Assembly: GCF_036669915.1 (NCBI RefSeq)
Contig: NC_089322.1
Coordinates: forward strand, 1,932,501 to 1,996,500
DNA from: Pocillopora verrucosa
Lineage: Eukaryota; Cnidaria; Anthozoa; Scleractinia; Pocilloporidae
Reading direction: 5' to 3'
DNA length: 64,000 nucleotides
Shown here: positions 37,367 to 64,000 of the stretch, piece by piece
Numbering within the stretch: the stretch's first letter is position 1
Layout: every line of letters begins with the position of its first letter
Made by a program: the position numbers and the translations under genes
The notes under the pieces: generated by a model
Told to the model about the DNA's origin: nothing
Databases searched by the model: none
What the model saw: only the letters and a program-made list of their open reading frames with translations

Positions 37367-37387
37367 TTAGTGTTTTAGCACCTTAGA

Positions 37388-40904: not shown

Positions 40905-40977
40905 AAATGATTTTATCAGATAATTTTATCAAATGATTTCATCAAATGATCTCATCAAATAATTCCATCATATAGAA
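40905..40977 (+). repeat. short tandem repeat in gene C promoter
   Basis: Same tatcaaatgatttcatcaaa array as at 22245-22325, at the same distance from the start codon. Confidence 0.6.
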
Positions 40978-41103
40978 AGTAGTATAGAGGGTTGGCATTT
41001 TGTACAAGATCACTTTTTCAAAGTGCTTTGGTACCGCAAACTACTATACTACATAAACACAAGTAAAGAGAAATTACGGTAGATGTCAGAGGCTATTCAT
41101 GTG

Positions 41104-41110
41104 TTTATAA
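41104..41110 (+). promoter_or_regulatory. TATA-like box of gene C
   Basis: tttataa 87 bp before the ATG, as in gene A. Confidence 0.55.
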
Positions 41111-41196
41111 GTTGGCGTTTGTTATAACTTCCTCACTTATCATCGAGTCTCACTGAAATCAAGTGGTATTCAAGACAGTGTGAGAAGACGAAAGCG

Positions 41197-43073
41197 ATGA
41201 AATTTTTTGCGCTCATCTTTCTGGTTTGTCTCGCAATTGGCGCTGATGCTCGCAAGAAAAAGAAACTTTTCCGCCGAATATTGAACAAGTTGTCCCATCT
41301 TGAGGACCTGATTAAGAAGAAACAGGCCTGCTATCCGCCAAGTAAGATGTAGAAGATCTTTTTTGTCGTTTTAACGTTACTTTTACATCACCGCTTTTTT
41401 GGTCCGTCGGTTCTGAATTTCGGCTGGATTAAAAGTTATTGTTAACATAGTTTGGAATTTTGCTAGTTACCCAGTTATGATCGATTGCCTGATAGTTTTT
41501 CTCATCTCTTCAGAGCCAACACCCGCAAGTTCCTGCAAAGAAATATATGAAAAAGACAGGTAAGGAACGTACGATCGTTAAATTTGTGCCTGAACGAGGG
41601 TGGGTGGCAAACAAACATATCGCGAAAATCCTTCTACAAAAAATTGCGCACTGGAGGAAAAATAATGTACAAAGCTAAAAGCGCAAAAAAGAAAAATAAA
41701 TAAAAAATAATTTATGCCAGTTGAGAATTCCACATCTCTTCCCCTTTACATGTAAGGATCAGTGTGAGTGATTTAAGAGAGTGTAAACTCGGCTGGATTT
41801 GTAGGGTTTGTTCTTTAATATCGTGATGGTGCAGATCTGGGCTCCTGTTTGGCTACACATCAAGAGCACAGTTTAAATACCTAAATAGCCTTGTAACAAG
41901 TCTTCACCCGTTGGAAATTGTGACATGTCTCCGTCCTGTTAACCCTGATTTTGTTTATCTCAGTATTATTCTCGCTGACCGTAATAGGGCAGAGCCAAGA
42001 CTTCCCCGCGTATTCTTTGCGATGTCACGCAGTGCTGCTTCTTTTTTGCGTCTCGTGACATTCCAAAGAACTACCTCGTAGGATTCAAAGAATATAACAC
42101 TCTGATGCTCTCTCATTAGTGCCAGCCCGAACAAGGCGTATAACCTCAAGCTTGGGAATAAATATCTGTCTGTGTATTGTTCCATGGATGGGGAGCTCGG
42201 AGACTGCGGTTGTGGGGGCTGGACGCTGGTCATGAAGATTGATGGTGCAAAGGTACAGTGGAACCCCTCTAAACTGGTGTACACCCTTGGGACCGTAGTT
42301 TTTCAAGAATGTCGAATGAAAACTTTGACTCGCTTCTTTCACTCCTGTTTGCTTCCCATTGTCTCTTTTAAGTCAGTGAATGTTTTATAGATCATATTAA
42401 AGGGCCACGCTCAACCAGCACGCAATACGGGCGTAGTGGACACTCTCAGTATTTTCTGGCGCGAGTTTGATGAAGCACTCATAGAGCGAAGTGAAGCAAA
42501 ACTGGGGCAATACCGGATTAGTTTAGACACTAACTTGAAAATTACCTCATCTTGCAGCACAACTTTAACTACGATTCAAAAGCGTGGTGTTCCAGGTCTT
42601 CAATCTCTCCCGAAAATGGAGAAACGGGGTTGGATCACTTGGAGACCCTGTTACCAACGTACTGGAGCACGTCCTTTACCAAGATCTGTCTCGGTATGAA
42701 GGTCGATGGAGTAACCAGGTTCTTGCGAGTGGATAGGGCAGCAGCCTCACTGTATACCCTCATTGCTGATGGTCAGTACCGTGCTACCTCGCTGGGCCGT
42801 GATGCATGGAAGAAGCTGATTGGCCCCAAAGCCTCCCTCCAGCGCAACTGTAATCAAGAAGGCTTCAGTTCGCGGGTGAGTAGTAGCGTTCATTCTCGGG
42901 TTCGAATTGGAATCATCTCTAATCAAGAAGGAAATTGTCATTCCCCTGATTCCTTTATCGGATTTGGTGGAGGAGGGTCAGGATTCAATAACGCGTGTGG
43001 AAACGGAGCCTCGTGGGGTCCAGACAACGGAAACAAAAATATCAAGGCATTTGGATACATTTTCGTTCAGTAA
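41197..43073 (+). CDS. gene C: secreted fibrinogen-like protein, USOMP-5-like
   Basis: Exons 41197-41341, 41514-41559, 42120-42252 and 42558-43073 (TAA) join to 279 aa with the same phases as gene A. The signal peptide is MKFFALIFLVCLAIGADA. The mature N-terminus has lost cysteines that gene A has (ACYPP instead of ACCPP, and KLFRR instead of KLCRR). It has gained one in DCGCGGWTLVMK and one in the exon 4 start (KAWCSRSS). The last ~90 residues are of a different type from A and B (NQEGFSSRV, CHSPDSFIGFGGGG, GPDNGNKNIKAFGYIFVQ). Exon 3 acceptor and donor are intact, so it is probably expressed. Function is presumed extracellular matrix, by family resemblance only. Confidence 0.83.
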
Positions 43074-43188
43074 AGACGCTGAACTGCTCTGCTCAAGTAA
43101 AAAGCTACATGCGACATAAAGCATGCTCTTATTTCAGTAATGGGGATTTTAAATGTGGGTTTTTGCTTTTGTTGTTAAATGAAGGGAA

Positions 43189-43194
43189 AATAAA
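43189..43194 (+). terminator. polyadenylation signal of gene C
   Basis: AATAAA 115 bp after the stop, conserved with genes A and B. Confidence 0.7.
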
Positions 43195-43744
43195 AGTGGG
43201 TCAATGAATCAAAATAATGCCTCTTAATTTCTGTGTTGTAGTTACTCGAAGGAGAATATTTCCTGTAGGTGTATAACTTTTACTCCCTCTAAGAAGTTGC
43301 TTTCCTTAAATCATATCAATACACTGTCTTTATGGGAGCCTTTTTTTTTCTTGACATCATAATTCGTTCAGCAAGGGCCAAATTAAAAAAAACTAAAATT
43401 GCACAAAATAAATGGAAGAAAACGACAGACCTCTCGTTATTTATCGCCTGATGGAGAGGGGCTGGGGTCCTCAGACCGAAAGATGCAAAAACAATGAATA
43501 CACTTACCATATCTTTGATTCATCCACTATGTCGTCGAATAGGCGCCTAACTCGACCGACTTCCGTAATCGTGCTGCAGTCCCATATCCTTTTTAAGGGC
43601 GCAATCAGTAAACTAGCGACAAAAAAGTTAGGACCTGATTTGTTTTTTCTGCACTTCTTGCAAAGCAAAAATCATTCCTTTTGCAAAATTTCCTTGTAAA
43701 ATAATTTCTCAGTGTGTATTTGCCACCTTCTTGGCCTCATACTA

Positions 43745-44403
43745 CCGTAGTTATTGAGTTATAAGGCGCACCGTTTTTTTCAAGAAATTCCTAATTTCTA
43801 CTAAAAATTACCAGCAAAGTTTGGGTGCGTCTTATAGGCGAATATTTTCCCGAAAAAAATTTTTTCATCACAGTTACTGGTACGATTTCAAGCAAATAAA
43901 AGGATACACAGTGTTGGTCATTGACTTTTATAAGTATGGTGGTTCTGAAAAGACGAGCGAAGTCAAATTTGCATAGATATGATACGTGCTCGAGAGCACG
44001 TGCTCAGTAATTTGACACGTCACAAAACAAAACGAAAATAAACAAGCGAAGAGATAAATACCTTCATCCATCCAGCCTTCTTTGTGCACTGAGACCTGCA
44101 TTCTCGGCGGTATGTTGATTCTTGTTTAATCAAGGCTTTTGTTTGTGCGCGTGGTCGCGTGTGCGACAATTCTGCTTTTGTTAATTAACAGTAAACTATA
44201 ATCAATACGCGACTTTTTCGCTTTTTTGTAAGTTTATGAGGGAATTTACAATAAACTTGACTGATCTTTACTCCCCAAACAACGGTGTGCCTTATAACCA
44301 AGTATTTTAGCGATATTTTCAGTTTGAAAACATGCAATGATGAAGTTGCCGAATTGGGGGTGCGTCTTATAGCCGAGTGCGCCTTATAACCGAATAACTA
44401 CGG
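43745..44403. mobile_element. 659-bp TA-inserting non-autonomous DNA transposon
   Basis: Terminal inverted repeats ccgtagttattgagttataa (left) and the inverse of ccgtagttattcggttataa (right) extend about 28 bp and are flanked by TA on both sides (43743-43744, 44404-44405). The paralogous site in block 1 (around 26115, - strand) has one TA and no insert. TA targeting suggests the Tc1/mariner-pogo group. No transposase is encoded. Confidence 0.88.
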
Positions 44404-44938
44404 TAGTTTCTTATTTTGTCGGAGACTGGGTCCCAACGTAATTAAGTTTTGATTGACACTTCACGTAAGTTATCATGGTTGTCGCTTTTGAAGGAGTGTT
44501 TTTTCTTAGAAGAAGGTGTAAAAAAGCACTGAGTGAAATGGAACAAAAAAATTTAAACTAGGAATGGTGTTTTCAAAGCCCTTCATGCTGGGGGGCCGGA
44601 GAGGAATAGATCATTTCATTTTAACTCACTGCGTTCGCACACATGAAAATTATTTTCTAAACCGTTAAAGGAACTTGCACAACACGACAACCACAGTCAA
44701 ATGGGTTGGTAACTCACGGAGAGCCAATATAAGCTTTATTACTGTATTCGAGCACTATGTGTATAAATGGTCACATTGCTTTTTGTCCCACAGAAATACG
44801 ATACGCGAAGCTATATCCTCATTAAGCTAGTACATTGCACAATTCATATGATACGGTTAAATTATAGTGAAAGCACTGATTATAATCATACAAACTAGGC
44901 TGTAACTATCATCACGCGTGGAAACTTAATGATAGCAA

Positions 44939-45853
44939 TTAAATACCTAGGCTAGATGAAACTGAAAGCCGTGCAGATATATCTTCTTGAATATACAAGT
45001 CTTTGGCGTAATCGGATTTCCACCGCCCGTGTAATTTTAATAACCTGTCTGATACAGGGCCGCTAGGTGAATTTACGGCAGCGGTTGCCCCACCGGACCT
45101 AAGACTGTGTAACCCAAAAAGTTTGGAGTCGTAACCTAGAGCCTTGAGAGCTTCCAAAAAGATTTCTCGACACCTAGAATACGAAATTCCTTTGTTCCCT
45201 AAAACATAAGTATTATAATTTTTCTGAAATACTAACTGCCTGATTAGGAGACCGTCTGCATTATGGTCCATTCTTGCAGCAGACATATACCTAAGGACCA
45301 TATGAACTGGACAAGTGGCATTGTCCGTTCTAGCAATAATAGCTTTATTACCTTCCCTGTAGACATCTGTTTTACTACTTGGTATAACAATGGACATATG
45401 GTCATCTGCGAAAGTTATATGCGAAGCTTTGATATTTGCTAACTCATTGAATCTGAAGAAACCTGCGAAACCTAAGAGGACTATGACTGAAATTCGCAGA
45501 TCTTTTAGATTAGCGTCTACCTTGCCATGTTTAGCAACTATTCTCTGGACCATATCAATAGAGAGAGGGAGCTTCCTATTCTTCCGTTGTGTGCCATTAC
45601 GTTTCGCAGCTTCAACAACATTTCTACACACTCCGGTTTTCAAAGGATTATTACTACAAGTTACGTCTACTACATCGTGTAGCCAAACTAATGCAGCATA
45701 AGCCATACTAACAGTGCTGGGAGAACCAGTCTTCCTGTGAAGTTGAGACAAATAGGCCGCTACAACAACAGGCTCTTGTGGCAAAACGAATTGAGCCTTA
45801 ACATCATTGCACCAACGCATAAATTTTTGACACTCAAGTAAATATCTATTCAT
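44939..45853 (-). CDS. tyrosine recombinase (DIRS integrase)
   Basis: 304 codons without a break. The catalytic set of the phage-integrase fold is visible: Arg134 in GFFRFNELANIK, Lys161 in SSKTDV, His249-x2-Arg252 in LHSLRSGGAT, Trp278 in HGRWKS, and a candidate nucleophile Tyr287 (KDLYIQ) or Tyr282. DIRS elements use such an enzyme instead of a DDE integrase to insert a circular cDNA without target duplication. The N-terminal ~100 residues form the usual SAM-like core-binding region. The frame is intact although the reverse transcriptase is interrupted. Confidence 0.92.
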   Translation of the reverse strand: MNRYLLECQKFMRWCNDVKAQFVLPQEPVVVAAYLSQLHRKTGSPSTVSMAYAALVWLHDVVDVTCSNNPLKTGVCRNVVEAAKRNGTQRKNRKLPLSIDMVQRIVAKHGKVDANLKDLRISVIVLLGFAGFFRFNELANIKASHITFADDHMSIVIPSSKTDVYREGNKAIIARTDNATCPVHMVLRYMSAARMDHNADGLLIRQLVFQKNYNTYVLGNKGISYSRCREIFLEALKALGYDSKLFGLHSLRSGGATAAVNSPSGPVSDRLLKLHGRWKSDYAKDLYIQEDISARLSVSSSLGI

Positions 45854-46039
45854 CGTCGAAGGTTGTCTGGCCTTAAACTGATCAGTAATGAGGCGCAGCT
45901 TGAAGGGAGCTAAAGATCCATAGAGACTTGCTCAACAGGACTGAGCAGAGATGGCCTGTTGAGGAAAACAAAAGGAAAAAACACATAACAGAGGGGTGTA
46001 GAGGTGGAACAATCTTACTCACTGATTCATGGCTAAAAG

Positions 46040-46330
46040 GGAATAAGTACTACAACCCGGGTGCTATTAGTTCTCAACACCACTACATTCATTAAATGAA
46101 GATCAAAAAAGGGCAATAAATAACACAGCACTATTGGAGTGCTATTCGTTGTCGACAAAACTTCTGCACATTGACACTGGCCGAAAAGAAATAAATACCT
46201 CAACACTGGTAAGGTGCTACTCGTTGTCAGCACATCTACCTGATATAAAATGATCAAAGTGAAATAAATAACGCAACACTGCCAAGGTGCTATTCGTAGT
46301 CAGCACAAATTCCACTCGCTAGATTGTGGC
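46040..46330. repeat. four ~75-bp direct repeats inside the DIRS element
   Basis: ggtgctattagttctcaaca, agtgctattcgttgtcgaca, ggtgctactcgttgtcagca and ggtgctattcgtagtcagca recur at about 46060, 46138, 46212 and 46288, each preceded by an aacact/aacacag word. The array separates the recombinase frame from the upstream polyprotein. Confidence 0.75.
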
Positions 46331-46353
46331 CGAAAGGCCAACCTTTCAGATTC

Positions 46354-47599
46354 TTACCCCGAAGGAACGAAATTCAATCTTAAAGCCACTACATATCCCG
46401 GAGTATTTGGCGAACCCAGAATAGAATTGTGATTTCGCCCGTGCGTCAAAGCTTGAGGCATAGACAAAACTCTTAAATCCTGGATGAAACTGCAATAAAT
46501 ATTGGTTAACAGGGGCCAAAACACGGCTGACTTCCACAGTGGAACAATAAGGGTGCCCTTGGCTCCTTGACTATATATATAGGCAAGCGTTCTGGGAATA
46601 AGATAAACTGGCGGAACTAACCAGCAGTTCTCAACTTCCCACGACTGCATAAATGCGTCAATGCCCGACGTTTCCGGGTTCCAAAATCTAGAAAAATATC
46701 TGGTGATTTTTCTGTTGTAATACGTGGCAAAACAATCCACCGTGTGGGGACCCCAAAGACTATCCAAGTCTTTGAAGACGTCCTCAGTGACCTGCCAATT
46801 GTCAAAATCCACCAGTTTGCAAATAAAATCTGCCCTGGTATTGCCATCTCTAGGAACCCATTCAATATCCAAATGAATGCTGTGTTCGTAACATATCTTG
46901 AATATTCTTAAGGCAATCGTGTGTAACTCGAGATTCATGCTACCGACCTCAACGATTTTGGCAGTGGCCTGGTTATCGGTATACTACTTAATATGTGATG
47001 AACTTAAAATCGGAAGGCAAGACAGAAGTGAGAATTCAATTGCACTTAATTCTCGCCACGTAGAACTTCTACTCCTTTCGTCCTGCGTCCACATTTTGTG
47101 GCAAATATGCTCGCCGTCATTGATATAAGAAACAGCTCCGCAGGCAATATTACTAGCATCTGAAAAAGTTACTTTCTGAGGTTTGCGGAAAACAAAGCAA
47201 TTTTTATAATTGCGTAGATGGATATTGTTCTTCCAGAAAACGATTTCATCCTTACAATACTCGTCTAAAATCATAGGTGTATCCCAATGCTCAGCAATAG
47301 CAATTGTCATCTGACAGTGTCTGGTAGTAATTCTGGGTAAATTTCCAGTAACCGGACATGTAGACATAACTTTCCCGACAAATGATGACAATTGTCTAGC
47401 CGCAATTGTGCATTTTTGAGCTTCAATAAAAGCCACACAATCAACGATACCTTGGACCCTCCTGGGTGTAATACTAATAGTACCAAGAGTGGAGTTCCAG
47501 ACCAATCCTAACCAAGTAATAATTTGCGTTGGTTCCCAAATTGACTTTTCGCTATTTGTTATAAATCCGGCTAAACGTATGTCGGAACGAACCCTACTA
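46354..47599 (-). pseudogene. DIRS polyprotein, C-terminal part (RNase H, methyltransferase-like)
   Basis: The frame continues directly from the reverse transcriptase part across the EnSpm insertion. It holds the RT connection (TWLGLVWNS), RNase H with VTFSDAS, WRELSAIE and TDNQA, and an MT-like segment (LWGPHTVDCFATYYNRKI, WEVENCWLVPPV). One in-frame TAG at 46984-46986 sits just before TDNQA, where relatives have a tryptophan codon, so a single base change ended the frame. Downstream the frame stays open to 46354. Apart from this stop and the insertion the sequence shows little decay. Confidence 0.82.
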
Positions 47600-47935
47600 C
47601 ACTGTAAAATTAAAAGAGCTGATTTGGCCCCAAAAATGGGGCCAAAACGAGTGAGTCCAGTTTGGCACTAGCCTAGGGTCAATTCGGCCCCATTGAAATG
47701 GGGCTGTTTTTGGCACCAATTTTGGGGCTGAATCGACCCCATTGTAGGGGCCAAATTGGACCACGTGAAGGGTGAATTTGAAAACTACAGGGGCCACTTT
47801 GAAATTTATAGGGGCCAAAACAGCCCCCAAAATTTCAGCCCTCTCACAAATGGCCCCTTTAAAAAGAGCCGATTCAGCTCCAATGTGAGTCCAATTCAGA
47901 AGTAGAGGGCTCTTTCCTCTGCACACTGATATCCC
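47600..47935. repeat. EnSpm left subterminal repeat array
   Basis: About a dozen variants of gggGCCAAAt / tttGGCCccc in both orientations (for example 47625, 47640, 47685, 47748, 47812). In CACTA elements such arrays bind transposase. Confidence 0.85.
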
Positions 47936-47989
47936 CCCTCACAATCAAATAATGAAAATACACCTCATATTTTATCTTTCAAACACTAA

Positions 47990-47995
47990 TTTATT
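47990..47995 (-). terminator. polyadenylation signal of the SAM-domain gene
   Basis: AATAAA on the - strand, about 365 bp beyond the stop at 48361. Confidence 0.4.
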
Positions 47996-48360
47996 CAGTT
48001 CTAGGTATTGTTACTGTTAAAACCTTTTACAGACCATGATTTTAAAGTTATGAAGAATCTTAGACAAACATTTGAAAGAATAGGACAATACATTTTTAAC
48101 ATTAATGCAACCAGTTTCTAAAATATATCTCTTCACTAAATCAATATACTTCTCAAAATTGCAAACATTGCTAGAAATTTCACATGAGACACTTGTAACT
48201 AAAGCTTCCCTTTTCAATGACTCAGCAAATGTGATAATGTGAGGCAGCTTATAATCAAGACTGACTGAATTTTTTGAAGTACAGAAAATTATCAAAATAA
48301 CACAACCGCAACAAATTGTCCTGCTCCTGCACAAGAGTATAAATCTTGTTTGATTCTACC

Positions 48361-51300
48361 TCAGGCATTTGCCAAGTCATTGAAAAAGGAGGAAACAGTA
48401 ACAAGAGTCTGCCCACGCCCAATTTCAAGCAATGCTTGCTCTAAAAAAGTCAAAATTGCCTTTGACTGATTGTAGGAGACATTAAAAACATAAAATGAGC
48501 CAAGTAACCCAATGACAGCATCAATAATTTTTTCTTGTGGGAGCTGACAAATAATACTCCCCTCTGTGACTATATACAGGAGATCAATGTCATAAATATC
48601 TCCAACAATAACAATTTGTGGCTGGATGTAATCTATAACTGCTGAATCAACATCAGCTTCTCTCTGCAATAAAAACAAATTTTACAACCATATTAAAAAC
48701 AAGCCAAAGTGCAAAGGAGCATCAAAATTACTGGCTAGTCTGCTGGGTTCAGTTGGTCACTTTACCCTCATTTAATTTTACTCAAATGATATATATGTGG
48801 GATGTTTTTCTAAAACTATAAGCCACAACATTAAAAAAGGAAGTGGAAATTTAGCTCAATGCTTTTAATTTGTCTTCCCTTCAAGCCTTGAAAAATACTA
48901 CACGACTCCCAAAGTATCTGCGCATATCACAAATGTACATGTGGGGTGTTCAACCCCCAGGAAAAAGACATCAACTATTCCATGTGCAGTATTTATCTTA
49001 TGGTTTGACTACAGCAAAATTTTTTTAAAAAAAAATTGCTAAATCACAATAATGGAAAAAAAGAAGGAAAATAAATACAACCCCAAAGTACTTGAAGCTT
49101 AGTATCTGGACTTCATAGCAAATGGGCTCAGTAATTTTAGCTGTTCTGTAGTATTTTTGTACCTAAGTAGCAGTTTTTATAAACTCCTACCTCCAAAATG
49201 GTCACAACTTCTTCTTGAAGTCCCCTTTTCTTTCCACTCCGCTGGCGCAGAACTTTGTTGATGACCAGCAGGGATGTCCTACTTTTAATTTCTGTAATTT
49301 AAATACAGAACAATTTGTTTTTTGTGAAAGTGGGAGACATTAACCCCTATATAACAGCATACTTTCCAATCTAGCAGTCTTGATAAACTCTCCTTAAAGC
49401 CAGGGCTTATACAAGTTGTAAAATCAAAGGTGACTTCTAATCAGGTGTCTGTGACAGCAGCAGAATGTTTTACACAAGTTAAGGTATAATACTTCTTTGT
49501 AAATGATTGAAAACCTCATTTTTACCTTCTCTGTTGCATCCCTCTTCACTAAGGGCAGCTTCCATTCCATCCATTACCTCATTGACCACCTTATCTTTGC
49601 TAGCAGCAGCATATTTTAGGATATGCTGCTGCCACATAAGGTATTTTTCCCGCAATTTGGTTGGGATGTTATCATCATTGAATATTCTACACAGCTCAGC
49701 TTTTAACTGCATTGAAAGGTAAGGCAGAAAACATAACATGTAAGTCGTCTTACTTGTCCGATGAATCTACTCTAGAGGTATTCATAACCACATGTGTACT
49801 GAGAATCCAGAGAGAGAAATGCTGTTCTTAAGGACTGTTCATGCCCTTAATAGGAACACAAATATATTGGTAAGGAACTTGCCTTTCATACACACAAAAT
49901 CCCTCTTCCCCCATTAAGAAAAAAATTAGTACAATTGGGAAGCATATCATTTAAAAGTATTGGACTGCAATCTCTGACAGGTACCCTAGTATCAGCCAAA
50001 AGTTGGCCAAAAAACAAACAAACAAACCTGTAACTGGTTTAGATTTTTGACAGATACAAGCAATTTACAGCTAATACTTACATGGATGAAGTATTTCAGA
50101 GATGGGTACTCCATCAACACAGCCTTCACCAATTTAGGGGCAGTTATGATTTCATGGCGGCGGAGGGGGAATGTTTTATCCATGAAATCCTTATGAGCTT
50201 TGTGCTTTCGGTGGTTTCTCCTGACTTCATTGCGATTTTCCTCAGCAAAGGCTTTTAAAGTTGCCAGAGTCTCACCTGCAGGTAAGTCTGGCTGCTGTGC
50301 CCAAATACTGAAATCTTTTTTTTGCCTTTTGGCCTTAGAGGGACCAGCTTCAGCAGGATTGGCTGGATGTTTAGGTTTTTGGATTTTTTTCATCCTGTTG
50401 AAAATCTTGACCTCCAAATAGCCCTGGAAAAGGGTCAGGACATTGCATAAATTAATGCCTAATTTTTTTGCACATTTGTTAGTAAACTTTACTCAACTAA
50501 TGATATTACTTTCAATGTGTGGAGTTCACATCATCTAAAGTTTTTCAGTTGGCACTTTATTCTGCCCCTTTCCCACTCTGTGCCTCCTGGCTGAACACTA
50601 CACATCTAATTCTATGGTAGATATGTGTTATAATTATTGGTAACAGCCAATCACACTTAAGAACTTAAAAGATCAGAGTGATTACTCTGCACCTTCTAAG
50701 TTTAAGCCAAGAAATTCAGCACAAAAATTTCTATTTTTACCATAAGTAGAAGAAGCAAACTGATAGATTTTTAAAATTTACTAACCCATTCAGTGTCTGA
50801 GTCAACTAGTTTCTTGCCAGCCATACATGGATACTCTTCAACAATTTTTTTAGCTATCCATTGCCTCTCAGAGCGCTTTGGGTGGCTGGTGAAGTGGTTG
50901 ATGCTTGTACAAACATCCCGGACCAATTCACTTTTCTGGTTTGCACTGAGGTATCCCTCCTGGATACCTAACTCTACTGAGGCAGAGAACTGTAAAAAAA
51001 GTAAACAAATGAACAAATTTATTTGTCGTTGGAGAACAGTAATTTTTGTGACTAAAAAGTTTCCATAAATGTAAACAAACTGTGCATAAAAGAGAAAAAA
51101 CATAATCATACCTCGATGATATCAATAATTTACTTTCACCAAACTATGTACTTATCGAGAAAGGAAATCATACTCCTAGGCACTTCAGTTTTCATGAATT
51201 AACAAGGATTGCTTAAAAAAACTAAATAAAAAAAAAACGGAAAAGTTTCTTACTCTCGATGGAAGCTGGAACTTTGATAGCCATCCAAGAGGAAGCTATA

Positions 51301-52407
51301 GGTAGAAATATTTTTTGAATAAATTAGACTGTCTGATAACATGTTATCAATTAAGTAATTTTTAATTTACCGAATTCACACATTAGGTTTACTTTGTTTT
51401 ATGCATAGTGGACGTAAATACATATCTAGTATATTTCAATAAAAATTAGCAGATCTCACCGTTTTTGACGGCTGTTTTCCCCGACATTTCTCTTCTTTAA
51501 CGGACCAACTGGCACCTTGTGTTTTTTCCTTTGGGGTAAAATAGGAAGAAAGGAATTGATAATGTACTCTTCACTATCCAGCCATCTTCACCATCTTACC
51601 CCATAAGAACTTACTTTAGCAATGCCCAGTTCTATCGCCTCGTCCATGATACAAAAATCCTTGGGAGATTTTCCCTTTTCATTGGGTGTCGATGTTAGTT
51701 CTAAATTTTCATCATCGCTGGTGTTTTGTGAATCGTCAGTCGACGTGTAAAACGAATTGCTCGTAGAACTTGATTCTGCACACTGAAGGAGAAAGAGCAA
51801 AAAATTCAGCTTAATTGGAGACAAACTAAGATATGGACATAAAAATAACAATTAATTTTTTTAAGGACAAGTTTAAGAATTCGGAGTGAGGAATCCTAAA
51901 ATCAGAGAGTCTTGAAAGAAGTCAAGTTCATCTTGTGCAAATGCAGTATCCGTTTTGAATTGTAACCGTCTCTATCTCTCGGCGCCAAAATGAGAACACA
52001 TGACTTTAGTTGTGAAACCGCTGAGAGTCAGGGGAATCACGCATGCGTCAAATTCTTTGGCGGGAAAACTAATTATCTTACCGACGAAGAACTCGCACCA
52101 TCTCTAGGTTCAGCGTTCATCAAGATCAATTTCTTGAATTTTAGTCGCTCTTTTACTAAGGGAAAGTAGTGCCTCAGTTCTTCTACATATTGGACAATGC
52201 CGAGGAGATCTTCACCGTCCAAACCGTCCTTTTCTGCAAGATAAGATACGAACAAAGATCAGTGAAGGAGTCAAGTTTGTGTACATAAAATTGCAATAAA
52301 ATGTGTTGTTAAGCAAATTTCTTTCGCTTACCTATCCTCTCTAAAGTCTCTGGAGAAAATCCATGCGACTGGAGCCAAGAAACAACCTCCTCACCACTGT
52401 AGTTCAT
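48361..52407 (-). CDS. EnSpm-encoded SAM-domain protein
   Basis: Ten exons on the - strand: 52407-52332, 52233-52082, 51782-51615, 51528-51460, 51295-51254, 50989-50786, 50423-50082, 49706-49526, 49291-49191, 48663-48361 (TGA). Phases agree throughout and give 545 aa. Residues 1-70 form a sterile alpha motif (VSWLQSHGFSPETLERI, then DGEDLLGIVQYVEELRHYF, LVKERLKFKKLI). A Ser/Asp-rich linker follows. A conserved middle part (about 170-350) has TSHPKRSERQWIAKKIVEEY and MEYPSLKYFIH around a basic Lys/Arg-Pro stretch. The C-terminal ~130 residues are hydrophobic-helical. Annotated animal genomes contain similar 'SAM domain-containing protein 3-like' genes linked to EnSpm, so this is probably an accessory DNA- or partner-binding protein. 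Its exact role is unknown. Exons 4-5 are short and least certain. Confidence 0.8.
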
Positions 52408-52666
52408 TATTGAGTCCGACGCACGAGGTCTAGCTAGGTTCGTTCGACTAATGAGATACGAAGAAGGAGCTGCAGAGAAGCACCAGCAAAAGAAGGACGA
52501 ATTTTGGAGGGAAATCGCTTTTATAACAAAATTTTAATCATTAAAAAGTTCACAGTTTTAAGTTGAGTAAACCAATCGTTAGCTGCGGTTTCGTTCGAGT
52601 TAAAGATCTACCAGTTTACCCCTCAACATTCCCGAATCCCTACGTCCTTGTGGCGTTTAAGTTGTG
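52408..52666. promoter_or_regulatory. bidirectional promoter interval of the EnSpm element
   Basis: 259 bp separate the ATG codons of the two divergent genes, so both must start transcription here. No TATA box is evident on either side; ccaatcg (52571) is the only CCAAT-like element noted. Confidence 0.6.
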
Positions 52667-55600
52667 ATGGGTATTCCGTGTAACATGTGCAATGCTGTCC
52701 TTGACAATTTTGGACTAGTTATCAGCCATTTCAGGCGGGTACATAGAGAAGATCCTAATTTCTTTGTTACATGTGGCATTAATGGATGTGGAAGAACTTA
52801 CAAGAAATTTTATGGGTACAGAAGTCACGTACACAGAGTGCACAGAGGATTTCTACGAGTTGCACGTGACGTTAAACAACCTCAGGATTTAGTGCAAGAT
52901 ATTGAGCCTGAAGAGCAAGCTGGTGATTTGCTTATTGATGAAGCACTTTTTGAAGAAGACAAAGACGATATCCAAAATGAACAGTTAAGAAACACGAGTG
53001 CAGCATATCTTTTGCGAATCAAGGAAACACACAATCTCTCACAAAAAGCTTTGGATGACATTGTACAGAGTACCAGTTCTCTTGTCTCTACTGCTGTTAA
53101 GTCAGTATGTATAAATATTGCCAATAAGCTTTTGAATATGGAGGAAGAGGAAAATCATGTGATACAAAACATAACATGGCAAACTTTATTTGAGGAAAAT
53201 TCTGAGAAGGCAAGCCCATTTCAAAACCTTGAAACAGAAAATAGACAAAAACGAGCATTTAAAGAAATCTTTGGTCTTGTTGTAAGTATAAGAAATTAAG
53301 TATATTGTACAATTTAGGATTTCCTTGTTAATAGTAAGGGAGTAAATCACTATTTTAATGAAAAGAAAAGCACCTTAACATACAGCTGTTAAAGACACCA
53401 AATTCTGCTTACAATGTTCAAACATGCCTAAACAATTTATAGTTGTAATACCAGAGACAGAAATGTGCAGTCTTTTCTCTTGTTTTATACCAGCTAGGGC
53501 TATGCTTGAACCAGCTAGCTAGGCTAACTTAGATGTCTCTGTACCAGTATGATATTTTGTTGGAATGTAATAAATCAACATGCATTATGTAATGTCCCCT
53601 GAACAGGAACCTGTGAAACGTGTGCTTGGAAACTTCCATGGTCATCGACAGAAAGGTCCAAAAAGAAGAAGGGTTCAACTAAATGATGAAGTCATTGAGA
53701 TCCCTCTTCTTGAAAGTTTAGAGCAGTGGTTGAACAACCCCTCAATTTTGAAACAGGTAAACAGAAATTATGGTGAAGTCAATCTACACTTTGCCATACT
53801 TGTTTTATCATAGGGGAACTTAGTTTTATGTGGACCAGTTCTTTAACTTGTGGGAATTTGCCTAGCTGGTAATTTTCCATTACTTTGCCCAGTGGTATTC
53901 TTAAATTTTGATAAAGGTGGAATGTTAAATGTGGTGATTTATTTGTAAATTCTTACGAATTGTTTCTGAACAGGTGGAAAACTCACATCAACGACATGAT
54001 GAGATGATTGCTGATTATTGTGATGGTCAGGTTTACCGCCAGCACCCTCTTTTCTCTAGGGACCCACATGCTTTACAGATTATATTGTATTATGATGATG
54101 TTGAAGTTGTGAATCCACTGGGCAGCAAAACTTCAAAACATAAAGTTGGTAATGAGATATTTTTATTTCACTATACTGTCACAAGTCATGAGACATTCAT
54201 GCATGTACCTCAGAGAGTAAGGAAAGGCATTTAGGTGTAGTTGTTTCACAATTAAGATTCAACCAGTTCAGATACTTATTTGATGTCATAATCAATTAAC
54301 CTTTGTAAGCATACTAAATGTTGCATACTATTTTAGGCGTTTTTTACTATACTCTTGGGAATATTGACCCTAAGCACCGATCCCAGCTAAAGGCAATGCA
54401 GCTTCTGGCAATTGCAAAGAGAACTGTGATCAAGAAGTATGGATGCAATGAAATTCTTCAAACATTCATGACAGAGCTCAATCAGTTAGAGCAGGTGAGA
54501 GTTAAATAATGACCACAGTGTGCAGTACATTCAATATCTGTTGTAGAGTAAACTGAAAGTATAGAAATGCAACAGACTTTAAAAATGTTGTACCAGTCTT
54601 ATTTGTATTGTATATATTGGACAGATCAGGGCTTGACTATCAACATTCTCGTTTTTTTATTTGATCTATATTTATTTCCTAAGGATGGAGGATACCAGTT
54701 TATCATAAATGGGGAAAGAAAGTCTTTGAGAGGAACCATCAGCTTTGTTTCTGGTGATAATTTGGCATCCCAGGAGATTGGAGGCTTTAAAATTGGAAGC
54801 TGTTCTGCACTGAAGTGCAGAGTTTGCATGGGAGATGCAAATGATGTGGCTTCAAAGGTAATATAATAAAATAAAAGATGAACTATTTTTCCACTGACAA
54901 TATAATAAGTTTTGTCAATCTACATGCAGCTGTCTAAATCTCTTCCCATTCACTTTGCACTCTGCTGCCTACTCATAAGTTTTTTTCTAGGCTTTTGCTC
55001 ATTGTGATAACTTTTGGCTTAACTTTCCCAGCAGCCATGTGAGAACCATTCTATGTGGAACCAAAGATACTCCCCTCTATTAATGATTAAACCACCTGAT
55101 CCTGTGACTTACCATGAAAAAACTGTGTTGTAAATCGTGTCTTATAGAGTTTGTAATTGAAGAGTGGTGTTGAAATCCAATAACTTTCTCATTATTCCCC
55201 ACAGTTTGTGGAAGACGATTTCCAATTACGCACCAAAGCAATGTATGATCAGCAGTGCACAGCCATTGAAAATTCAGCCATTGACATTTCTTCACAGTTT
55301 GGAATAAATCTGAGATCAGCCCTGAACCAGTCACGATACTTCCATGTCATAGAAGGTCTTCCGGGTGATGCAATGCATGATGTCCTTGAGGGGCTTCTTC
55401 AATATGAAGTCAAAGAACTCCTCAAATATGCTATATATGAGCAGCAGTTTTTCACTTTGGAAAATTTAAATTGTTGGATTAAAAATTTTGATTATGGTTA
55501 TCCAGATGTTTCCAACAAACCATGTGTTATATCAAGTGCCACCCTAAATTCCAACACTAATTCTCTCAAACAAAAAGGTAAAATTGCATTATTAGTAGCT

Positions 55601-57600
55601 TCATTCGTACAACATGCTTTATCCAGAGATACAGTCTTAGCTTTGAAATCATTGCTTGTAACTCTGACACAAGATACATTCGTCATCATTGCATTGTCAC
55701 CCTAGTGTACACTGTTAGTATTAATTTTGTACACAAAAGGCTGTCTTTTTGTCCATTTTTATTGTTATGGTAATATTTGAACTGCAAGTTACAGTAATTC
55801 AAAATTTTCCAAACATTTGCCATGTGTTTAACATCATGATCCTACCATTCTGGTATATTTTTTTAAAGTAGTGGAATATTTTGGTAAATGATCAATGGCA
55901 CCGATACATATATATATTTTATTTATTTCACTCATGAAATTGATAAAACTGTGTTTTGGTAGCTCTGTTGATCATAATGTGATTTTAGCTTCACAGATGT
56001 GGTGCCTTGGCCGTTTCCTTCCATTGATGATGGGCAGCCATATCCCTCGTGATGATGAGAAGTGGGGTCTCTTCTTAAATCTTTTGGAAATAGTGGACAT
56101 TGTTTTTGCTGATGCAGTCACACTTGATAAAGCAGCTTACTTAAGGGATTTAATCACAGATCACCATACTAGCTTTACCCAGTTGTACCAAAATTCCTCT
56201 GTGATTCCAAAGATGCACTATATTCTTCATTACCCCAGGACAATGGTAAGGTAAGTTGGAAATTAAAAATATTTTAACTTTTCTTTTGATGGGTGATAAT
56301 TTTGTGACATAAATCTTTGTGTTATTGTTTGTGTTTTCCAGTAGTTATCTATAGTACATGTAAGGTTGATCATTGAAAAAGGAAAAAATGTAAATATGTA
56401 GCATTTTGATATTTAAGGCTTGGTCCCATGGTACGGTCCTGGACAATGAGATTTGAGGCAAAGCATGAAAGACTCAAACGGCTGGCCACATCCCTTGGCA
56501 ATTTCACCAATATTCCTTGGACGCTGGCTCTTCGTCATCAGTTGAGGCAGTGCTATGAAATATCAGGCACTAAGCATGGTCATCCATCAATTGAAAAGTC
56601 TTTGGAAGTAGGCCCAGGTATTTAATTACAACCATTTTATTTTCCACTGGTCTGAAAGTATGCTGACATTCATATGTGCATGTGAATTTGCCTGTGACAA
56701 TATAGACATGTGTATTTATCTAATGGGGGTCCTTAGGACCAACAATTCTGCTTTTATTTATTTAGTGTAGAGACCATTCATTGGAAAAAAACTGCCACAA
56801 TTATTTTTTGTCAACTTGTAGCCAATAACCTTTAAGCCTGCTGTCTAATTAGATATGTTATGCCTTTTAAAAAAAACAAAGACACTTATTGTAATATTAT
56901 GAGGTTATTATTGCCATTTCCAGGGACTCAGAAAGAAGCTAACAGGGCAGCATACTTCAACATGCTTCTTGAGAAGCTTGACACCCTGGAAGGTGAAGAC
57001 CTAATTCATGAGTAAGTAATTTCATTTAATGCAAACACCATTCAAGTGCAGATTTTAAACTAGGTGAAGCAGAATTAACAACTTTACATAGAACAAGTCA
57101 TGTAAAAAAAAAAATTCTGTATTAAGAATACAAATATTTACATGTGCTCAGGGTATTCAATGGTAATTTTTTGACAATGGCACTTTTGTTGTAGTTTTTT
57201 GTTCTTGGACAACCCATCTTTTTCATCTTTTTTGACGGTTGTATTTTTCAGGGCAAAATGGTGCATGGTCTTTGGTACCAAATATAAAAAAGGTGCAGCT
57301 GTCCACACAGGAGGAGATGGGCTCTTACCACAGTTCTCACTGATAGACAAAATTGTGACAGTTCCTGGGAAAGATGCTTCACAGGTCTTTTTTGTTTTGA
57401 AAGAAATTGTTACCCATCATTATGAAGTCCACTTGCATGCATATCATGTGAAGGTTTTAAATGATGGAGCAGTCAGTGTCAGGAGCCAAGAAGAACTCAC
57501 AACATTTAGGCCTTTGCATATTTGTAGAAGTATTGGGGACAATCAATCCAGTTTTATCTGCCCTAAAAGTGATGTGGATGTTTACAATGAGCAGATATAG
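52667..57600 (+). CDS. EnSpm/CACTA DDE transposase
   Basis: Ten exons: 52667-53281, 53607-53756, 53974-54148, 54337-54494, 54684-54857, 55205-55577, 55989-56250, 56418-56617, 56924-57011, 57252-57600 (TAG). They join in frame to 847 aa. The start at 52667 gives two C2H2 fingers (Cys5, Cys8, His21, His26; Cys36, Cys41, His54, His59), presumably for binding element ends. The RNase H-like core follows with Asp391 in FVSGDNLASQE, Asp479 in LPGDAMHDVLEG and Glu649 in WTMRFEAKHE, the DDE triad pattern of the EnSpm/TNP2 group. A CxxC (CRVCMGDAND) lies between the first two. No stop or frameshift was found. Intron-rich structure is normal for animal EnSpm elements. Confidence 0.92.
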
Positions 57601-57839
57601 AAAAGGTGTCTGCAAATGATCTTGGAAAGGTGTACTGAGTATATGTCAGCAATCAAATATGATTTTTTGGATTATGTCTGCAACAGGCTGTCATTTTTTG
57701 AAAAGTGCATTGAATATAGATGGGCAAAAAAAACTGTTTGCTTTTAAAGGTATTGTATATAAAACTGCTTGTGAAATGACTTGTAAATAGCATTGAAGCT
57801 TTTGTAAAATAAGTTGTAACCTAGTGATAATCATGGATT

Positions 57840-57845
57840 AATAAA
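57840..57845 (+). terminator. polyadenylation signal of the EnSpm transposase
   Basis: AATAAA 240 bp after the stop, with a T/G-rich stretch following. Confidence 0.55.
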
Positions 57846-58204
57846 GAGCATTTGATATAGCTTAGGAATGGGTATTTTAGTCTCTGTGTTTTCAAAATCC
57901 ATTGTATAATCAAACCTATGAACACAGAATAGTAGCTTGGCTCACTGTTCTGATTTTCAGTGACTTAGTTTGTTCAATCATATGGTTATCTTTAGAAATT
58001 TTGAATAACATCCAAACCAAAGTGATTCTAGATGCCCTCATGAGATCAAGGCCAGATGGCATCAAAGAGCTGAAATGATCCACACCTGTGGGATTTTCTT
58101 AAACCGAAATGGCTGAAAAAATGACAAAAATAATAAGCATCTTCCTATGTCAAAAGCAAAAGTAGAACAAAAACTAACGACCTTACTCACTGTGTTTACT
58201 ATTA

Positions 58205-58468
58205 TTGTACTTTTTTGGGGCCAAATTGGTCAATCCTACTTGGCTCTTGGAGGGGCCAAATTGAGAAAAAGTTCCAAAGTAGAATTCATAGGGGCCAATT
58301 CAGATTTTGGAGGGGCCAATTCAGATTTTGGAGGGGTTGAAATGGTACCTGTTCCGCCCGTTTTGGCTCAAATAGTCCAAAACGAACCTCGATGGGCCAA
58401 ATTGGCCCTCAAGAAATTGGGGCCAATTTGGCTTTTGGGGTCAATTTGGCTCTTTTCATTTTACAGTG
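58205..58468. repeat. EnSpm right subterminal repeat array
   Basis: At least nine ggGGCCAAat words (58219, 58253, 58290, 58312 and others), including a 23-bp direct duplication at 58290-58335. The rest of 57846-58204 holds nothing recognised. Confidence 0.85.
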
Positions 58469-59372
58469 TAGCTATAATATTTGCCGAATTATAGTCGTCA
58501 GCTATGGACCAACCATCATCTAAAAATACCGCGATGTAAATACCGTTAGCCCTCCACCATCCAACCAAAGGGTGGAGTATCTTTGTAAAGATATAAGGAG
58601 TTACAGAAAGGCCAAAAGGAAGAACTGTGAAAACGTAAAACCGCGTCTCCCCTTGAAAATCCCATGAAAAACCTAAGAATGTTTGATGTGGTTGGAAGAT
58701 CTCGACGTGATGATAGCCACTCTTAAGATCAAAAGAAAACATATAACCATTCTTGCGAAACATAAGAGAAGCAATTTTCCAATCATCGTACTTAATCCTC
58801 AGTTTCTTAATGAAATGATTAACATATCTTAAATCAAGAATTAACCTTTTCTTTCCATTAGGCTGAACGGAAACCGACAATGGATTGACGACATGGGGTT
58901 TGTAAGATAATTGCTTTATGCGTTCGGACTCCAGTAGCTCAGTGATAGAATTCTCTACGAAATCAATATTTTTCAGGGCAGAAGCGTTGTTCTTTGAATA
59001 ATATGCAGGCGGCACATCCCAGAAAGGCAAACGATAACCAAATTTAATTACGTTTAATATGAAGGATGAAGCACCTAAAAATACCCAAAATTCTAAATTT
59101 TTCTTTAAATTGCCCTTTACATTGTAATTCCGTCCTAGATCTTCGTCAATTTCAAAACGATTCAGTACCTGAAGTACATCCGTAAACTTGTCGAATTCCT
59201 CATGAATGTCCGATTCCCTTAAGTCCGGTTCCTGAAGCGTTTGTGGTGGTGGAGGCTGGGGCAAAGGCGGTTGGCTTGAACTGGCCGAAAGGGCGGGGAT
59301 AGAAGCTGGAGGCCCTGCAATCTTTGGCCCAGTGACCTGGCCTTCCGCACCTGAAGCAGTCCCCATGTGCAT
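58469..59372 (-). pseudogene. DIRS reverse transcriptase, N-terminal part
   Basis: About 300 codons with the palm motifs in order: KKRLILDLRYVN, FSFDLKSGYHHVEI (first catalytic Asp), FTVLPFGLSVTPYIFTK and the active-site AVFLDDGWS. The frame runs into the EnSpm terminus 14 codons after FLDD. It resumes at 47599. The start overlaps the zinc-knuckle frame by about 170 nt in another phase, as is usual in DIRS elements. Confidence 0.88.
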
Positions 59373-59454
59373 AAGAGCTTGGACGGCCTGCGGGTGTCAA
59401 GATGGGACGAAAATATGAATAGTTAAGTAACGACAAATAACAACCAAAGAACAA
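59200..59454 (-). CDS. DIRS gag-like zinc-knuckle frame (partial)
   Basis: Contains a CCHC zinc knuckle, CFRCGRPGHWAKDC, then a Pro/Ala/Thr-rich tail, and stops at 59200. This is typical of the nucleic-acid-binding C-terminus of gag. The upstream part is only ~20 codons and ends at a possible splice acceptor (cacccgcag at about 59390), so the full gag is missing or its N-terminal exon lies elsewhere. Confidence 0.6.
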   Translation of the reverse strand: MFFGCYLSLLNYSYFRPILTPAGRPSSYAHGDCFRCGRPGHWAKDCRASSFYPRPFGQFKPTAFAPASTTTNASGTGLKGIGHS

Positions 59455-59720
59455 AACTTGGTCATTAACACAAAAGAAAAGGAGGGGCGGGTGGGCGGGA
59501 AAGCAGAATACAGCAAAGCTATATTGGTGACGCGAGAAGTGAAATAAGCATACGGCTACTGGACTATACAGCAGTACATGCTATGACACCTTACTCCCAT
59601 GTGGTACAGAAATCATGCATACTTGACAGGTATTACGTAACAGTAATGCACACGAAGGTGAGATAGAAAAACAAAGTGTGAACACTGACGTTCTGTAATA
59701 AACTCCTATAGAAAATACAT

Positions 59721-61754
59721 ATTTATTTTCTATCTTCTTCGGTGGTATTTATGAAGAATTTCATTTTAAAAAATTGTCACCTATGATTTAGAAGAAATTA
59801 CGACAAATACGCAAATTTGTAGAGTAATGATTGGATGAAATGTCTCCTGAAAACACATCGTTGTGAAAGGAAAAGAATGGACAGTTTTATTTTCATCAAA
59901 TAACGACAATATATGATATATTCTTTGTTACAGTTGAATGCAAGATTAAAGAGCAGAAAAAATAGCCGCCGAATACACACAACATGAGCTTAGGAAAAAA
60001 AAAAAAGGAAAAAAAAAGTAGCCCAAAAATTTTTGTCCTAAAAAATGCCTTCATTGAGATCACCATTTTCAACGGCCCACCCCTAGAGTTTCGCATACGC
60101 GCCTGACTATCGCTTTTGACATCGGTCGCCTGGCAGGAATATTTTGTGCTGGTGAAAAACATAAATTGAACTTAACATTTATTGAACACGCAGCTTTGTG
60201 AAAGGAAAATGTTAAACATTTTTATTTTTATCAAATAAAAACCAAAAATAACGTGAACTCTGTTTCAATCGAATGCAAAAATCGTCGCACGTGACGGAAC
60301 ATCGAATGCTCGAAATACAGTGTAACAGTGCGTACAAGAATATTCATATTTAGAAACAAATTACAAGAAACTGAAAACTTATTGACGAAATTGATGTCTA
60401 GCTCACGTTGAAGTTCAAGTTCCGTCATAAACATTAATTATCACGTTTTAAACATTCATGATCCGTGCGGAACGAACGGATCGTTAAAATGACATGGCCA
60501 AAGCTTTAATAAAATTCACGGATCGTCAACACAGCCTTACGAGTCGTGAATATATTTGACGCACCATGGTACTGGACATGCGTGACCGAGGAGAGAGAAA
60601 ATTGCGCGTCATCAATTTAATTTCTGACCACTTTTTTGTATATTAACAGAAATAAACTAATTTTGTTATTGTTGTGTGGTAAATACTCAAACAGTTATGC
60701 ACCTCAGAGTCGGTGAAAGTCCTTGATATCTATCTCGCAGCTCAGTTAATAATATCCACTTCCATTCACCTCCACTTCGGTGAATAAATAACTCACCTGC
60801 ATTTTTACTGGCACTGTGAATTGATTAATAACGGTAATAGGACTGAGTGGAGTCCAATTTCGTCTGCAATCATACGGGTGATTAACCAAATCGGACTTTG
60901 AATGTAGCCCAAATTGGACGACACGAAGTCCCGTTATCATTATAAATCGGGCTGGTGATAATCAATTACGTTCGAGAATTTATAGTTCTAGCTTTAATTA
61001 ATTGCCTAACAATATCTTCAGGGCCAACTACACCTGCAAGTTCCTCGAAAGAAATATGCGACAAGGACAGGCAAGGAACGAGTGTAGGGTCAGGGCGGGT
61101 GGCAAATACACACTGAGAAATCGTTACATGGAAATTGTGCAAAAGAGATGATTTTTACAAAGCAAGAAGCGTAGAAAAAAACAAGTCAGGCTCTAACTGT
61201 GTTTGTCGCTTGTTTACTGATTGAGCTCGTAAAAAGGAAATGGAACTGCACGACGATTACGGAAGTCGGTCGAGTTAGGTGCTTATTCGACGAGATACTG
61301 GATGGATCAAAGATATGGTAAATATATGCATTGTTTCTGTATTTTTTTGGTCTGGGGACACCCCCTTCCCTCCTATAGGCAATAAATAAAGAAGGGTCTC
61401 ATATTCTCTGCCATTTATTTTGTGTAATTTTAGTTTTTAGAATTTGGCCCTTACTGAACGAATTATGTTGTCAAGAGAGGAAAAGCACTCATAAAGACGG
61501 TATGTTGATATGGTTTAAGGAAAAGTAACTTCTTGGAGGGAGTGAAAGTTATACACCTAAAAGACAGATTATTCTACAAATCAACTCAAAAATACAAGAG
61601 ACAATATTTTAATTCATTAACCCACTTCTATTGTTCGTTTATTTCATAGCAGAAGCGAAACCCGACGTCTTAAATCCTCATTACTGAAATAAGAGCTTGA
61701 TCATTGCTCCACGTCGCATGCAACTTTTTCCTTAAGCAGAGCAGTTCAGTGTCT
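59721..61754. other. block 2 spacer between the DIRS insertion and gene D
   Basis: 59721-60480 repeats the block 1 spacer (25050-25790). 60480-61020 is unique AT-rich DNA. 61071-61500 repeats 26100-26530. No gene, but an orphan exon lies at 61022-61070. Confidence 0.6.
61022..61070 (+). pseudogene. orphan exon 2 of a USOMP-5-like gene
   Basis: 49 nt after an intact cttcag acceptor, reading PTTPASSSKEICDKD, matches exon 2 of genes A-D. It stands alone on the + strand, opposite to gene D. The donor is GC instead of GT (acag|gcaagg) and the conserved Cys is Ser. It is followed by intron-2-like DNA. Confidence 0.7.
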
Positions 61755-64000
61755 TTACTGAACGAAAATGTATCCAAATGCCTTGATATTTTTGTCTCCG
61801 TTGTCCGGTGAATACAAGGCTCCGTTTCCACACGCGTTTTTGAATCCTGACCCTCCTCCACCAAATCCGATAAAGGAATCAGGGGAATGACAATCTCCTT
61901 CTTGATTAGAGATGATTCCAACTCGAACCCGAGAATGAACGCTACTACTCACCCGCGAATTGAAGCCTTCTTGATTACAGTTGCGCTGGAGGGAGGCATT
62001 GGGACCAATCAGCTTCTTCCATGCATCACGACCCAGCGAGGTAGCACGGTATTGACCGTCACCAATGAGGGCATACAACGAGTCTGCTTTCTGATGCAGT
62101 TGCAAGAACCTGGTTACTCTATCGACCTTCATTCCAAGGCAGATCTTGGAAAAGGACGTGCTCCAGTAGGTTGGTAACAGGGTCTCCAGGTGATCCAATC
62201 CGGTATCTCCATTTTCGGGAGAGACTGAAGACATTGAAGACCACACTTTTGAATCGTAATCAAAGGTTTGCTGCGAGAAAAAAGGACATTTTCAACTTAG
62301 TATCCAGTGCATTTGAGAAAAGGCAATTTTCAACCTAATGTCTATAGTACTCCGGGACTGCACCAGTATCCCTTCTCTTTGCTCTATGAGTGCTCATTAA
62401 ACTCGCGCCAATCTCTCACCAGGTCAGGTGCCTCAATAGACGAATTTTCAACTGAATGTCGAAAGTAATCAGAGATTTCATTGGTTTTGCTTTACCTCGA
62501 ATTGTGATTGGTCCAGAAATTAAAACTCGTGCCACTCAACCGATGAGATGTAAAACTAACACTTAACACGACTTGGTCGCCTGCGTTTTCCCGTGCTTTA
62601 GGCAGTTTGGTCGTTTTTACTATGAGTTCTCATTGGCTGTCCGGGATATTTTTCTTTCTTTTGATTGGCCGTTGTGATTACTTTGGTTTCGGTCTTACGG
62701 CACTGAAAAACTAAGCTGAATCGCTCATAATGGACGACGTTTCCGGTCTGTATGACAGAATCAAAGGCAAAATTGAAGAATTTGTAAGACGGCCAAACAG
62801 CTACGTTGAACCACGATCAAGACAATACATATTATCTTGCCACGATGCAATCACTATTCACGGCTGAAATATCAGACTCAGAAGTTATATACTTGACAAA
62901 AGTGTACAAAAGCAAGAGATTTAACAGGGACTCGATCCTTGACGTCGAATTGTATTACAAAGAGACGGAGACCTTCGAATTCTAAAATATATTTATTGGT
63001 GTCGGTGAAATGCCGGTGTCATTCACAAGGCGCAAAAAAAGGATTTGTAAAAGAAGTGCTTCGCCTCCTACGAATAAATTCGTCACACTCCACTTTTAAT
63101 AAAAACATTCAGTGTTTCAAAATACGCTTAAATAATAAAGAATAATGAGAGGAAATTTTGGAGAAATGCATCTCTGAATTTGATCCAACCGGGAGGGAAA
63201 GGTTACTCAAAAACTTCCACGGAATTAGACTTGCGATGGATTATAAATGTTTCCCCGTTTGACGGTCTTTCAAGTGCCGAGAGGAACCTTCTGTTTGATT
63301 TTCCTGCGAAATGCTGTGTAGCAGGGCCTCAAAGGACTCGCTGTTTGTTTTCTTGCCTTATCCCAAGGCGTTTAGAATTGATCTAACAAACCATATAATA
63401 TGGTGGCTTTCCATTGTGCAGGACGGCCTCTTTTCGATGGCTTCATTTTCGAAAATACGAAACAAACACGACAAATAGTAAGAGAAATCATGTTACTGCT
63501 TTTAATAATGTACATGAAAAAAAACATCACAGAAGTCAAGACAGACGAACTTTCAAAGCGTGCACGCGCTATTTGTAATTTGCACTCCTGTTACAGCTTT
63601 GCACTCGTGTTACATGAGAATGCATTTGTTTTCAGCCAATTAGAAGCGCAAGTAGATTATTATACAGAAAATACTGAGAATGTTCACTAAGCCTGCATTG
63701 CATCCTGGTTGAGCGAGCACATGACTTGAGCGAAGACCTTCATGTGCTCCATAAAACATTCACTGATTTAAGAGAGACAATGGGAAACAAACAGGAGTGA
63801 GAGAAACGAATCAAAGTTTTCATTCGTTACATTCGAAAAACAATGAGTTGGTAGGGTTTTGAAACCTTGAACATGTTTGAAATACCTTTGCACCGTCAGT
63901 CTTCATGACCAGCGTCCATCCCCCACCACCGCAGTCTCCAAGCTCCCCGCTCATGGAACAGTACACAGACACATCTTTATCGCCTAGCTTGAGGTCATAC
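61755..64000 (-). CDS. gene D: USOMP-5-like, 5' end outside the window
   Basis: On the - strand the last exon is 62270-61755 (TAA). The preceding exon ends at 63886 with a GT donor and runs off the window at 64000. Exon 3 encodes LKLGDKDVSVYCSMSGE and GGGGWTLVMKTDGAK, the same residues as gene B. Exon 4 begins like B (SKVWSSMSSVSPENGD) but ends like C (NQEGFNSRVSSS, SPDSFIGFGGGGSG, NIKAFGYIFVQ). It differs from all others at FLQLHQKADSLYALIGDG. No defect is seen in the visible part. Exons 1-2, and so the signal peptide, cannot be checked. Confidence 0.78.
62410..63663 (+). mobile_element. 1.25-kb insertion in intron 3 of gene D
   Basis: Orthologous to the 27430-28681 insert, at the same intron position. 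The frame from 62731 (MDDVSGLYDRIKGKIEEF) stops after 44 codons at TGA, where the block 1 copy continues. Retroelement-tail-like GFVKEVLRLLRINSSHSTF is read near 63040-63105. Confidence 0.55.

Follow-up and report, generated by a model that had tools for sequence, protein, structure and literature searches.

A full-length EnSpm/CACTA-type transposon at a duplicated TA in an already broken DIRS-type retroelement of Pocillopora verrucosa

The split retroelement and the transposon inside it

The 64,000-nucleotide stretch of Pocillopora verrucosa DNA analysed here (the window; contig NC_089322.1, positions 1,932,501 to 1,996,500, with features numbered from its first letter) contains a DIRS-type retroelement on the − strand, whose two parts lie on either side of a full-length DNA transposon. 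The 5′ part (58469–59729), with an end common to dispersed copies of the element, carries the start of the reverse transcriptase (RVT_1, E 1e-10). The 3′ part (44612–47599) continues with the remaining reverse transcriptase and RNase H (46987–47597; RT_RNaseH_2, E 0.0036, below cut-off), a candidate methyltransferase-like domain (46357–46983; Dam, E 8.1e-05, below cut-off), a tyrosine recombinase (44942–45931; Phage_integrase, E 0.00028, below cut-off), and a 54-bp terminal repeat (44612–44665). This order of domains is that of DIRS-order retroelements, in which a tyrosine recombinase replaces the integrase, and the defining pair is present here with RVT_1 above its cut-off and Phage_integrase below. 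A methyltransferase-like domain is a trait of the DIRS and PAT groups, and elements of the order are not known to make a target site duplication and have inverted or split direct terminal repeats.

The termini recall the PAT/Ngaro kind: two dispersed copies, on C7 and on C11 at 4.16 Mb, carry a 54-bp direct repeat at each end (L022:2774–2827 and 6963–7016; L025:3145–3198 and 7401–7454), whereas DIRS1 has inverted repeats. The window copy retains only the left repeat, the one at its right end being missing, and a single repeat was found in each of L024, L016, and L019. Near the 4.16-Mb copy lies a separate second piece of the DIRS right end (C11:4159191–4159412, in L025; window 59499–59720).

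Between the methyltransferase-like domain and the RNase H, the frame is interrupted by a stop (46984–46986, − strand), which is the first in-frame stop of the left DIRS half in the window and, identically, in two neighboring tandem copies of the locus that lack the transposon. It predates the insertion, so the transposon arrived in a DIRS copy that was no longer intact; a retroelement intact until that moment is ruled out by the stop common to these empty siblings. In the left half of the dispersed copies, the first in-frame stops lie elsewhere.

The transposon, of EnSpm/CACTA type, occupies 47600–58468 (+ strand; 10,869 bp). At its left junction the flank ends ...CCCTACTA and the element begins CACTGTAAAATTAAAAGAGC from 47600, and at its right junction the element ends ...TTTTACAGTG at 58468 and is followed by TAGCTATAAT. 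The termini are CACTG and CAGTG, with a TA on each side (47598–47599 and 58469–58470) where empty copies have a single TA. Terminal inverted repeats of 36 bp (47600–47635, +; 58433–58468, −) pair at 31 of 36 positions, and their initial CAC is one of the marks of the EnSpm/CACTA (CMC) group. The original prediction had named these ends, the flanking TA, and the length of 10,869 bp; a re-reading of both junctions found all of this exact to the base, its range of 47598–58470 being the element plus both TA copies. The same borders recur in a second full copy, on C3, whose ends are identical and do not lie elsewhere.

Two multi-exon genes of approximate limits lie in the element, beginning near each other and running in opposite directions. 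The predicted transposase gene (52667–57600, +) was delimited from open frames, an ab initio model, motifs, and below-cut-off zinc-finger hits, the last of which hint weakly at N-terminal C2H2-like fingers. Motifs picked by eye from the translations comprise a first D (54088–54123), a second D (54744–54767), C(2)C (54816–54827), H(3)H (56210–56236), and E (56452–56478), all on the + strand, and would form a DDE transposase whose second D and E are separated by C(2)C and H(3–4)H, another mark of the CMC group, with catalysis predicted. The available part of PMC12730594 gives the signature D..D..C(2)C..H..H..E for EnSpm, Mirage, Chapaev, and Transib. Neither the ten transposase-strand frames nor the partial modelled protein of 484 aa gave a hit to a transposase family in Pfam up to E 1. 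The second gene (48017–52533, −), delimited from open frames and an ab initio model, encodes a SAM domain located in the first two exons of the model when these are joined (52332–52407 and 52082–52233, −; SAM_3, 24.3 bits, cut-off 22.6).

Exon borders are those of the ab initio model, which passes over frames that could be exonic. Of 10 + strand frames examined in the C3 copy, 9 remain open; in the tenth (54552–54866) a one-base gap at 54651 shifts the reading, and this gap falls in an intron of the model, where the exon begins at 54684. No gap lies within the second gene of that copy. The claim that both genes are open over all exons stands for the models, in which the C3 transposase exons are open as well, and extends to the modelled exons only.

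Empty sites and the tandem array

When the genome that contains the window (353 Mb, 52 contigs) was searched, the left DIRS flank returned six matches, the window included, and the right flank returned ten, namely the same six places and four weak relatives at 69–72%. Five other DIRS copies were recovered with the two flanks, two in tandem with the window locus and three dispersed, and the insert is absent from all of them. Separate alignments of the two flanks meet in each of the five and overlap by 2 bp, and therefore one TA and no insert is present there; three of them (L009, L010, and L012), read letter by letter, give ...CCCTACTAGCTATAAT... with one TA. The five copies all join at the very TA at which the prediction had placed the insertion. 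It had also held that the DIRS frame continues across the site once the insert is removed. Of the three copies translated across the empty site, L009 and L012 have a − strand frame that crosses it stop-free (616 bases read), and L010 has one stop within the stretch translated, near a deletion, its similarity to the window being lost past 58640 and regained at 59472. As five other copies are empty, the empty state is ancestral, and the predicted order of events, DIRS first and EnSpm later, is borne out by independent empty DIRS copies.

The stretch 34338–63102 of the window is part of a tandemly duplicated unit (approximately 24 kb without the transposon), recognized by its sequence identity to the next units and repeated downstream without EnSpm. 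Two of the empty DIRS copies sit 35 and 59 kb downstream in near-identical units: window 34338–47599 is 99.68% identical to the next unit over 13,264 positions, and the second unit downstream is 99.72% identical to window 40012–47599 and 99.76% identical to 58469–63102 over 4,634 positions. Because the surrounding unit matches too, these copies are duplicates of the locus and not new DIRS insertions. The three dispersed copies (one each on C7 and C13, and one at another place on C11), compared across the flanks at window 40001–47599 and 58469–64000, match in the DIRS part only (approximately 44605–59729; 97.6–99.0%, with one separate 222-base piece at 96.8%) and, to judge from these alignments, lie outside the array.

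The array, with units of approximately 24 kb and inverted and direct repeats inside them, extends over window 20374–64000 and along C11 to approximately 2.05 Mb (L015–L019). Four open frames within it (23871–24407, 26777–27352, 42534–43070, and 61758–62291) belong to segments that repeat one another, and none of the four has a Pfam match.

Compared with the two tandem siblings, the left DIRS half of the window shows 3 and 5 substitutions in 2,986 bases, of which a single one is private to the window among six copies. The right half has no private substitution in 1,252 bases among five copies and one difference from the tandem sibling that retains that half, which brings the private changes of both halves to one in approximately 4.2 kb. 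These counts indicate that the EnSpm insertion postdates the formation of the tandem array or its last homogenization; gene conversion among tandem units could have lowered their divergence, and the age limit is therefore counted from the latter. That the insertion is recent, as originally proposed, is upheld by the tandem units and by the second EnSpm copy, and the argument first offered for it, that the two DIRS halves have hardly decayed, is by itself no proof.

Clean sibling units at the site are also what one would see had the insertion preceded the tandem duplication and the siblings then lost the element by precise excision, and cut-and-paste elements do excise. However, the three dispersed DIRS copies are likewise empty, with one TA and no extra bases, so that separate perfect excisions would be needed, and we regard this course of events as very improbable. 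A later insertion into one unit of the array is the reading that we follow below.

Copies of the element and their target sites

The second full copy, on C3, differs from the window element by 14 substitutions and three one-base gaps, an identity of 99.84% across the 10,869 positions aligned. TG on both of its sides marks it as a separate insertion and brings the full copies established to at least two. It also bears on the idea that the element was misjoined into this unit by the assembly, for which a repetitive array with aligned parts approximately 99.7% alike would offer an opportunity. Such an artefact would have to reproduce the duplicated TA and the perfect ends at both junctions that are expected of an insertion, and the flanks and the duplication of the C3 copy are different ones; this explanation is hardly credible, and a genuine insertion remains the preferred reading.

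The genome holds at least 41 matches to the left end of the element and at least 42 to the right. Twenty further places with both ends 3.3–5.3 kb apart, chosen for that nearness and not by their flanks, were all fetched and are shorter relatives; among the remaining matches are two pairs of ends 12–13 kb apart. Identities were tabulated for 18 of the 20 (L053 and L055 left out), of which 15 are 97–99% alike and three (L041, L044, and L049) lower, at approximately 91–97%, and internal pieces are 78–86% like the window element. None of the 20 has a blastn match longer than 60 bases to element positions 4,795–10,605, the stretch of the transposase gene, and for this reason the shorter relatives look non-autonomous. 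In L036, the one relative read for frames, pieces of the second gene are recognizable and incomplete. The same L036 stands head to head with L045, another 4-kb CACTA relative, approximately 110 bp apart and each with its own TA duplication (C11:18735351–18743979).

Two copies on C12, recognized by their right ends (L056 and L057, at 13.17 and 13.25 Mb), match the window element at 98.5% over 5,810 and 96.9% over 1,822 positions compared; their right flanks are identical over the 20 bases shown, and they were therefore probably duplicated with their locus after insertion. The transposase core frame (55184–55702) has five close places in the genome at 94–100% (on C3, on C11, and three on C12, of which the last is split into two pieces), all of them stop-free, and more distant relatives mostly contain stops.

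Target sites were examined at both ends of 22 copies, 20 of which are readable (two full copies and 18 shorter relatives of 3.3–5.2 kb). Excluded as not readable and without a match are L051, whose left end has been replaced, and L053, whose ends are not at the fetched borders. Equal 2-bp flanks occur in all 20 readable copies (20 of 22 with L051 and L053 counted as misses), which lies within the 2–5 bp of the EnSpm/CACTA (CMC) group. A 2-bp match is expected by chance at approximately 0.07 per site, and the regularity across 20 copies excludes chance for the TA flanking the window element. The right flank of L055 was shifted by hand to a decayed end, its first two bases being TA either way, and L043, in a TA run, is uninformative alone. 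The duplicated dinucleotides are TA in nine copies, TG in six, CA in four, and AA in one, so that pyrimidine–purine (YR) steps account for 19 of 20 sites, compared with 0.23 of window dinucleotides. The sole non-YR site, AA, belongs to L052 (C11:2084090–2088523), a 4-kb relative approximately 88 kb downstream of the window. TA as a fixed target is ruled out by the 11 readable copies with TG, CA, or AA.

Taken as a history, these observations make it highly probable that a DIRS-order retroelement inserted first, that this copy was carried into a tandem (segmental) duplication, and that a DNA transposon of the CACTA/EnSpm group later entered a single unit of the array by cut-and-paste, at a TA within the reverse transcriptase frame, where filling in of a 2-bp staggered cut would have left TA on both sides. 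The element's own DDE-type transposase may have made the insertion, with a presumed preference for pyrimidine–purine dinucleotides, and the SAM-domain protein might assist it in the manner of the second En/Spm protein. Ordinary cut-and-paste by this predicted transposase with a 2-bp stagger is the most likely mechanism. A different view, that the element is full-length but silent, or was moved in trans by a related transposase, and is not an active autonomous one, would fit a genome in which two full copies are established beside 20 shorter relatives; the modelled transposase exons, however, are open in both full copies, and these are nearly identical with different target duplications. We consider this view unlikely, though well worth weighing, and proceed with mobilization by the element's own predicted enzyme.

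Relation to known CACTA elements

Plant En/Spm shares the CAC...GTG ends, the D..D..C(2)C..H..H..E transposase, and a gene for a second protein, and plant EnSpm elements make a 3-bp duplication. Fungal EnSpm/CACTA families likewise resemble the window element in ends and transposase signature and differ in a 3-bp duplication as against exactly 2 bp here; a 3-bp duplication of their kind is ruled out by the absence of equal 3-bp flanks from all 20 readable copies, and the 2 bp found here falls within the range of target site duplications of the wider group (PMC12730594, as far as its available part describes them). The same portion of that source describes 2-bp duplications in the CMCT group as well, with TA for ESTA and 2 or 2–3 bp for Plavaka. 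Both are described there from fungi, and the ends of Plavaka (TGT..ACA or CATCA..TGATG) are unlike the CACTG found here.

Parallels also come from animals. DeMarco and colleagues have already published nested insertions of CACTA elements that show 2-bp duplications and have paralogues lacking the insert (PMC1636069). In the available part of that work, SmTRC1 and related TRC elements likewise show a 2-bp duplication, copies within retrotransposons (Saci-1 and Saci-4), and paralogues without the insertion, whereas their ends start CCC in place of CACTG and a direct 2-bp repeat is present in 7 of 14 SmTRC1 copies as against 20 of 20 readable copies here (PMC1636069). Spongebob/EnSpm-4N1_HM of Hydra is also an animal CACTA element with a 2-bp duplication, with CCC ends and a transposase hidden by stop codons or frameshifts (PMC4298943, available part), and the accessible part of PMC2884549 gives no duplication length. 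The window element is a case of the same kind as those of DeMarco and colleagues, with other ends and more regular duplications.

The locus is a very clean case of one mobile element nested in another, yet an ordinary one, and it changes no wider view. With the empty sites, the second full copy, and the array of the host locus all in one genome, its borders, order of events, and relative age can be read without recourse to other species. We suggest only tentatively that it may represent an animal CACTA lineage that still moves today, in which the ends are CACTG, the transposase cuts with a strict 2-bp stagger at YR steps (TA, TG, and CA), and a SAM-domain protein fills the role of the En/Spm protein TnpA. 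The strict duplication of 2 bp, which falls on YR steps in 19 of the 20 readable copies, is a usable character of the family.
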